DNA from: Rhodopirellula sp. SM50
GTDB lineage: Bacteria; Planctomycetota; Planctomycetia; Pirellulales; Pirellulaceae
DNA length: 64,000 nucleotides
Assembly (NCBI RefSeq): GCF_002289565.1
Contig: NZ_NTFY01000004.1
Span: 62,001-126,000 of the forward strand
Direction of reading: 5' to 3'
This document shows positions 35,179 to 57,010 of this stretch, piece by piece. Below the pieces are notes generated by a model. It was not told where the DNA came from. It saw only the letters and a list, made by a program, of their open reading frames with translations, and ran no database searches. Positions within the stretch are counted from its first letter, which is position 1. Each line of letters begins with the position of its first letter. The position numbers were made by a program, and so were the translations under genes.

Positions 35179-35383
35179 CCAGCGGGAAGCGTCAGCGAGC
35201 GGCGAGTCAGAAACGCCAAACAGCGGGCCGCTCGCTGACCGGCCTGTTGATTCAATCAGCCGTTTGGCGCGAGCCTACGGGCCCCGGTGCTTTTCTTCGT
35301 GCGACAGGCCCGTACGCTCGCGCCAAACGGCTGATGCCACGTGTGATCGGATTAAATCAACAGGCCGTGACGCTTCCCGCTGG
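35179..35383. mobile_element. Palindrome interrupted by an inserted small element (outer repeat)
   Basis: Outer left arm 35179-35203 begins CCAGCGGGAAGCG. Its complement is split: 35227-35239 and 35372-35383. Joining the halves after deleting 35240-35367 plus one TGAC gives a perfect 25-bp inverted repeat. It fills the gap between hemX and comEC; no gene is seen in 35095-35409. Confidence 0.88.
35240..35367. mobile_element. Inserted 128-bp element with CGGCCTGTTGATT ends and TGAC duplication
   Basis: Ends CGGCCTGTTGATT and AATCAACAGGCCG are inverted repeats. TGAC flanks it on both sides (35236-35239 and 35368-35371). The interior is a hairpin, CAGCCGTTTGGCGCGAGCCT...GGGCCC and its complement ending CGCCAAACGGCTG. 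There is no reading frame for a transposase, so movement would need an enzyme encoded elsewhere. Confidence 0.85.
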
Positions 35384-56253: not shown

Positions 56254-56670
56254 AGTCCAGTTGTTCTCCATCGATCTTGAAACGAATCTTTCGCGTAATC
56301 GTGCAACACGCGCACGCCGAAGCGGGTTTTCGCTCAGCAAAGGTCGGGCCAACTCGCTCGGGCTGGTCCAAAGGCACCCTGGAATACCCCTGCAATCCTA
56401 CTGAAATTCCAGCTGACGTGCAGACCGATCGTCGATTTAACGCTCGATCACAACGCGGAATCGGTCTAATGTTTGTACAAACTGTCGATTTTCAGTCGCG
56501 CTGACTGTTTTTCGCCGCCGGCTGGCTGCACCGGCTGGATGCACTGCTCGCCGAACTGCTCGCTGAACCGCTCGCCAGACAAGACGAGCCAGGAAACGCA
56601 ATCGGGTCGCGGTGGGTGATCGGAGACCCATGGCTCGGAAACCCCCAACCGCAACGCTGTGAGGCATTTT

Positions 56671-56863
56671 TTAGCGGTAGGGCGCGAGCGGCCTGTCGAT
56701 TTAGACGATGTTCCGAAATCAACGTGATCATGCCAGCCCGACGCGTGAGCGAGGGGCGCCGCGTGGCCCCTTGCTAACGCGTGCGGGCTTAAATCGACAG
56801 GCCGCGAGCCCTCCGGTGTTTGGGCAAAGATGCGGAACCGGAGGGCTCGCGCCCTGCCGCTAA
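56671..56863. mobile_element. Family A palindrome (copy 4) interrupted by an inserted element
   Basis: TTAGCGGTAGGGCGCGAG (56671-56688) continues at 56809 with CCCTCCGGTG and ends at 56863 in TGCCGCTAA. Deleting 56689-56804 and one CGAG gives 27-bp arms with one mismatch. The non-coding gap 56254-57122 contains, to its left, short repeats CTGCTCGCCGAACTGCTCGC near 56540 and no gene. Confidence 0.88.
56689..56804. mobile_element. Inserted 116-bp element with CGGCCTGTCGATTTA ends and CGAG duplication
   Basis: Ends CGGCCTGTCGATTTA (56689-56703) and TAAATCGACAGGCCG (56790-56804) are perfect inverted repeats; CGAG flanks both sides (56685-56688, 56805-56808). The inside carries a further hairpin (AGCCCGACGCGTGAGCGAGG / CCCTTGCTAACGCGTGCGGG). 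The termini match those of the element at 35240-35367 apart from a few bases. Confidence 0.88.
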
Positions 56864-57010
56864 CACCTTAACAACCACAGGAAAAAATGCTTCACAGCGG
56901 TGCCCCAACCGGATCGGCATCAAAAAAGCGCCGCAAACCAATGATCCAACGCACCCCGGGCACGGCGTTTGCCAACAGGCGATCGGACGTGTCGCGTGCC
57001 TAGCAGGAAT

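Follow-up and report, generated by a model that had tools for sequence, protein, structure and literature searches.

In staphylococci, IS1272 and TnSha1 of the IS1182 family use hairpin targets which are partly or wholly deleted upon insertion while nothing is duplicated, and the excerpted text of the reports on these elements ascribes palindromic targets for some IS1182 members to a review by Siguier and colleagues (PMC5678879, PMC4923244). As far as the excerpts go, duplication of a loop appears solely in a model, as one conceivable branch. For ISPse1, an IS1182 member from Paracoccus, inverted repeats of 16 bp are listed together with a duplication of 4 bp, and the excerpt describing it mentions neither palindromic targets nor miniature transposons (MITEs) (PMC3281130). 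In addition, REP palindromes are targets of elements from the IS3, IS110, IS4, IS256 and IS5 families, for example ISPsy8, ISRm22 and ISPpu9; in the excerpted text IS1182 is absent from these families and miniature derivatives are not mentioned (PMC1525189). According to an excerpt of PMC3733652, REPs are present in Planctomycetes.

The window analyzed here is a stretch of 64,000 nucleotides within contig C81 of the 9.8-Mb genome of Rhodopirellula sp. SM50 (G000). The likeness to IS1272 and TnSha1, as these are described in the excerpts, lies in the transposase family of a related element in the genome TBK1r (G012), in inverted ends of about 15-16 bp and in targets able to form hairpins. IS1272 and TnSha1 remove the hairpin and duplicate nothing, whereas the window element keeps its palindrome and duplicates CGAG, as judged by empty sites in the relatives G001 and G003, and does not fit hairpin replacement of the IS1272 type. 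It resembles ISPse1 in the 4-bp duplication and the REP-targeting insertion sequences in the use of a fixed point in a palindromic repeat, there often with a short duplication. Abundant short palindromic repeats are likewise found in REP/REPIN-RAYT systems and the family-A repeat of the window could be of the general REP kind, but the elements described here differ from those systems in their long inverted ends and 4-bp duplications. Single-strand (HUH) transposition is not known to make such 4-bp duplications. Literature searches on IS1182 palindromes and MITEs, Rhodopirellula, Stieleria, planctomycete MITEs and hairpin targets gave no description of the family in the titles and abstracts among the matches listed.

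The nested element at 56 kb

The features of this locus and of a second one at 35 kb are as follows; where no strand is given, none was assigned.

56689..56804: miniature transposon (MITE) of alpha type, 116 bp, from letters read directly and interior typing
56689..56703, plus strand: left inverted end CGGCCTGTCGATTTA, read directly
56790..56804, minus strand: right inverted end, matching CGGCCTGTCGATTTA exactly when reverse-complemented, read directly
56685..56688: CGAG, copy 1 of the 4-bp duplication; single copy in G001 and G003
56805..56808: CGAG, copy 2 of the 4-bp duplication, read directly
56671..56863: family-A palindrome interrupted by the MITE, unbroken in G001 and G003
56652..56902: outer unit around the palindrome, ends CAACGCTG and CAGCGGTG, flanked by CCCCAACCG at 56643-56651 and 56903-56911
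35240..35367: second MITE of the family, beta type, 128 bp, with TGAC at 35236-35239 and 35368-35371
35179..35383: palindrome interrupted by the 35-kb copy; at the same locus the palindrome of G003 holds a MITE of gamma type

An earlier note on this DNA had reported perfect 15-bp inverted ends, CGAG on either side and an insertion in a family-A palindrome, all of which could be read directly in the letters. When the element and one CGAG are taken out, the palindrome arms (56671-56688 plus 56809-56817 against 56837-56863) come to 27 bp with one mismatch, just as the note had it. The host palindrome is in turn the core of the larger unit 56652-56902, which has inverted ends of its own and a 9-bp duplication, CCCCAACCG. 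This outer unit is a second mobile repeat family, and TBK1r is without it.

At the orthologous locus of G001 and G003 the palindrome is uninterrupted, the MITE is absent and CGAG occurs once. In TBK1r the whole unit 56652-56902 is missing and a single CCCCAACCG is found versus two in the window. The nest was therefore built in at least two steps: the palindrome unit was inserted first, with its 9-bp duplication, and the MITE afterwards, with its 4-bp duplication. The MITE has 99% and 97% identity over 118 and 133 bp with copies at other G003 loci, which exceeds the 91-92% identity of its flanking DNA with G003 and fits recent movement. At the 35-kb locus, where the window has the beta MITE, G003 carries a gamma MITE, flanked by GTGA and GTAA with one mismatch, within a palindrome whose outer stem measures 12 bp; the aligned stretches of G001, G002, TBK1r and G013 contain neither the beta nor the gamma MITE.

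As is usual for a MITE, the element at 56689-56804 is short, is present in multiple copies and has inverted ends and a target duplication. A gene-bearing element with the same ends exists in TBK1r, though not in G000 itself. Since 116 bp leave no room for a transposase gene, the element cannot be assigned to IS1182 by an encoded transposase and, judged by its ends, may at most be a non-autonomous relative of that family. The fold predicted for its single-stranded DNA is a long, bulged hairpin spanning the element (-42.4 kcal/mol, z -8.2), the 35-kb element behaves likewise (z -10.8), and the palindrome restored by removal of the MITE also folds (z -9.2). In an alignment of 22 alpha copies, double changes occurred in one of 36 predicted pairs and this pair is located in the inverted end, so that the alignment says little on selection for the alpha interior hairpin. 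Rfam gave no match at gathering score over window positions 34000-58000.

Ends, duplications and interiors of the family

The end pattern CGGSCTGTYGATTBA matches G000 exactly at 126 places and, read backwards, at none. Within the window, 19 matches were found with up to three mismatches versus 6.5 in shuffles. The pattern is present in 29 of 60 relatives, with counts in the same genus, which we take to be Stieleria, of 153 (G001), 107 (G002), 177 (G003), 88 (TBK1r) and 59 (G013), and outside the genus of 48 (G030), 34 (G026) and 12 (G019). A scan of named genomes for the paired-end pattern returned 27 stretches: 15 in Stieleria sedimenti, four in TBK1r, three in Rhodopirellula sp. JC639, four in Roseimaritima sediminicola and one in a Planctomycetaceae MAG. 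Such counts are not a matter of chance. The claim of one family with separate nested insertions is supported.

In a 1.147-Mb sample of G000, 42 elements between 110 and 353 bp long are flanked by an exact 4-bp duplication. Among 90 candidate elements of this sample the duplication was exact in 38 and had one mismatch in 24, while the flanks of 28 differed at two or more of the four bases; as the sample was mostly chosen around listed end matches, these fractions are not a random-genome estimate. With genomes pooled, 76 of 175 candidates had an exact 4-bp duplication, compared with 7.8 when flanks were permuted. Duplications of 2, 3 and 5 bp numbered 3, 2 and 2 (permuted 6.5, 4.0 and 0.5), and none of 6 to 10 bp was found among the pooled candidates. 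Longer end-to-end pairs with a duplication in G000 (1543, 1671 and 2398 bp) were left aside as likely chance joins because CGAG is often used as a target.

Three interior types recur, alpha of about 116 bp, beta of about 129 bp and gamma of about 119 bp, and in each of them a strong hairpin adjoins one end and a spacer the other. Additional types occur in G002, G013, G019 and G026. Different interior hairpins behind the same ends had been claimed before and are indeed present. The accompanying idea that the ends move different "cargo" holds insofar as the interiors differ, but is overstated: what lies between the ends is a short hairpin, and a complete IS1182-family element in TBK1r is bounded by these ends as well.

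Tandem arrays of ends were also seen, with six copies 168 bp apart at L147:675-1631 (G026) and four ends 180 bp apart at L142:3500-4054 (TBK1r). At five contig ends of G000 (loci L102, L107, L117, L046 and L064 on C98, C109, C121, C18 and C62, respectively) the gamma hairpin is interrupted, at nearly the same point, by a different repeated sequence that continues past the contig end and is probably another insertion sequence targeting these hairpins.

An IS1182-family insertion sequence with the same ends

In TBK1r a transposase of 605 aa from the IS1182 family occurs in 36 full-length copies with 99-100% identity (NF033551, IS1182, 328.9 bits at a cut-off of 270; PF13751 and PF05598 above cut-off). 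Its gene lies in a 1993-bp element which bears the same ends as the MITEs, and element and insertion sequence have only about 15-16 bp in common. Eight of the 36 copies were left out of the duplication count; 22 of the 28 that were read have exact 4-bp duplications. A family-A-like 8-base core surrounds 21 of these 22 (18 by a stricter 24-base class, 15 with a clear partner arm), and ends and target are common to this insertion sequence and the MITEs. Being near-identical, the 36 copies are recent. No duplication is present in six of the 28 copies, some of which have flanks of the type left by recombination between copies. At the TBK1r copies at 7462744 and 9142074 and at L235 (G107) the same palindrome half stands on both sides in opposite orientation without a duplication, which might be due to recombination between copies of the insertion sequence.

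Neither the TBK1r transposase nor PF13751 has a match in the G000 assembly. Among G001, G002 and G004, each a genome of one contig, matches were confined to two distant ones (21% identity) in G001. Relatives at E 1e-60 or better turned up in seven of 149 genomes sampled from the family and, with a second query, in eight of 396 sampled from the order. The G000 MITEs thus look orphaned. We infer that an IS1182-family transposase moved the G000 copies and that the insertion sequence arrives, multiplies and disappears again, leaving MITEs behind.

Two other candidates were rejected. The distant G001 insertion sequence (21% identity to the TBK1r transposase) was ruled out as present mover by its ends, which begin GAGGCTGTGAATAATT. 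It is 1616 bp long with a 445-aa ORF, and at L179 and L182 it sits inside family-A palindromes at another position with an apparent 3-bp duplication. A 1615-bp element of G019 with perfect ends (L131:2311-3925; transposase P0002, IS4 family) had been considered as a self-sufficient copy and proved to be a 118-bp MITE holding an unrelated IS4-family insertion sequence, which lies within the hairpin of the 118-bp element and has an apparent 11-bp duplication, GGGCGTTAGCC.

Target choice and the possible role of hairpins

The 98 distinct sites with an exact duplication fall into class A (44), class B (13), class E (7), class C (5) and others (29). Of the 90 G000 candidates, 53 lie in these four recurrent target classes and 37 outside. 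The palindrome is plain in class A; the inverted repeats of B, C and E are imperfect and on average pair across the duplication at 3.5, 3.8 and 4.7 of 7, respectively, under a wider centring than that behind the 2.8 of random positions. The earlier note would have been contradicted by copies mostly outside palindromes and without duplications. The duplications speak against such an outcome, and with respect to palindromes the result is divided, since 27 of the 90 candidates are clear cases (A) and 26 imperfect ones (B, C and E).

Insertions in class A fall not on the big hairpin but on a small stem-loop within one arm. Every arm holds such a stem-loop, with 5 bp of stem and GCGA as the loop (AGGGC-GCGA-GCCCT or ACGGC-GCGA-GCCGT), and the duplicated CGAG is the GCGA loop shifted by one base. 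Both stem variants are used (C-G with 6 sites filled and 33 empty, G-C with 5 filled and 85 empty). Empty GGCGCGAGCC sites in the G000 sample comprised 117 in family A, 109 of them with a stem of exactly 5 bp, 64 in beta interiors, with a 3-bp stem, and 7 in neither. Sixteen insertions in family A (117 empty) compare with none at 72 other GGCGCGAGCC sites (Fisher p 8e-4), filled sites being recognized by the 8 bases GGCGCGAG and empty ones by the 10 bases GGCGCGAGCC, the tenth of which is different in one filled site out of the 16. Immunity of MITEs to their own kind could be an alternative cause for the untouched beta interiors. A clear partner arm was present at 12 of 17 filled and 110 of 189 empty sites, and an intact large palindrome is therefore not clearly required.

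Pairing across the duplication was assessed at 28 sites outside the classes, omitting those 69 of the 98 that belong to A, B, C or E and one of the 29 others that lies beside a neighboring end. The mean was 3.50 of 7 pairs versus 3.06 with permuted arms (19 of 2000 permutations); with other settings the signal was weaker, up to 310 of 2000. Distant IS1182 relatives have the same ends and a 4-bp duplication. Nine copies were used; L226, L230, L232 and L235 are without an end pair plus duplication, L301, L303 and L304 were left out, and L298-L300, L302 and L306-L309 are repeats of earlier places. Four of the nine showed a strong hairpin of 6-7 of 7 pairs around the duplication, the clearest sites being CCGTTGGC[GTAA]GCCAACGG, CCGGCGGC[GTCA]GCCGCCGG, CCGGCGGT[GTCA]ACCGCCGG and CCGGCGGC[TTAC]ACCGCCGG, and the remaining five had 2-4 of 7 pairs near the center. 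For the 28 sites plus seven sites of the distant relatives the mean was 3.80 of 7 versus 3.22 with permuted arms (2 of 4000; 1 and 0 of 4000 with wider centring). Six or seven of 7 pairs were reached at seven of these 35 sites outside the recurrent classes versus 0.6% of 14655 random positions, although a single genus, with two genomes, supplies four of the seven, which have similar stems and are not independent. Complementary arms around the insertion point are accordingly clear at some sites and weak at others, and a preference for hairpins is likely, if partial, sequence preference also contributing. The earlier proposal that hairpin DNA is the target is borne out in part: in class A the small stem-loop is used and not the big hairpin, many other sites lack an evident hairpin, and much may be due to sequence preference.

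We lean, with some reserve, towards a non-autonomous MITE that is moved in trans by an IS1182-family transposase with a preference for short inverted repeats, the 4-bp duplication falling at or beside the loop. Such an enzyme would recognize the ends of about 15 bp, CGG(C/G)CTGT(C/T)GATTTA, and its insertion would create the 4-bp duplication. It would favor short inverted repeats whose arms stand only a few bases apart, the duplicated bases being the loop of the small hairpin or lying one base beside it, and in Stieleria its commonest target would be the 5-bp stem with GCGA loop in the arm of the family-A palindrome. The interiors could vary freely with a strong hairpin in every type. Counting against this reading are the missing transposase match in the G000 assembly, the mere 15-16 bp common to element and insertion sequence, the weak pairing signal when the distant IS1182 sites are left aside, the weak pairing of classes B and C, and the 28 of 90 candidates with two or more differences in the four flanking bases. 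We infer that folded DNA, either a cruciform or a single strand, is read and not flat symmetric sequence.

That the same kind of transposase instead reads symmetric double-stranded sequence centered on 4 bp, palindromic repeats being targeted because they contain it, is a possibility to be taken seriously, if a rather doubtful one. It would agree with the recurrence of insertions at precisely the same points within a small number of sequence classes, with the many duplications of the form C-N-N-G (judged by eye), with the modest pairing outside the classes and with the excerpted report that REP palindromes are preferred targets of IS elements from several families (PMC1525189). Against it, sites such as CCGGGGAC[TCAC]GTCCCCGG, CCGTTGGC[GTAA]GCCAACGG and CCGGCGGC[GTCA]GCCGCCGG are alike in their perfect stem and not in sequence, and the decamer GGCGCGAGCC is free of insertions at all 72 sites outside family A, 64 of which are beta interiors.

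Near-random insertion, with selection retaining copies in harmless intergenic repeats, appears improbable. The other insertion sequence of G001 is also found within family-A palindromes at its own position, as if the repeats were safe havens, but the insertion point in family A is fixed to the base, the 36 near-identical recent TBK1r copies have the same preference among those read, and beta interiors, which are repeats too, are without insertions. It is more improbable still, to the point of being hardly credible, that element and palindrome spread as one composite repeat or were joined by recombination rather than by repeated insertion. The TBK1r copies without duplication, some with recombination-type flanks, would suit this explanation; it is opposed by the different interior types in the same target class, the empty palindromes at the orthologous locus and the different elements of G000 and G003 in the 35-kb palindrome.

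The MITEs described here have IS1182-type ends and leave the palindrome in place, with 4 bp duplicated in a small loop or next to it. More broadly, and only tentatively, a Pirellulaceae clade of IS1182 elements and its MITEs may insert into the loops of small hairpins, duplicating the loop and keeping the hairpin, which would be the pathway that the IS1272 model shows solely as a possibility. Because MITEs and target repeats are both strong hairpins, successive families would pile into each other and give layered palindromes throughout these large genomes. Few transposases are known that choose their targets by DNA shape. The 36 near-identical insertion sequence copies of one complete genome, the many MITEs and the empty sites at orthologous loci amount to a natural data set by which the reading of sequence could be told from the reading of hairpins, and with which IS1182 elements that keep the hairpin could be compared with those that remove it. 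For the Stieleria genomes, nested transposons account for part of the dense palindromic repeats.
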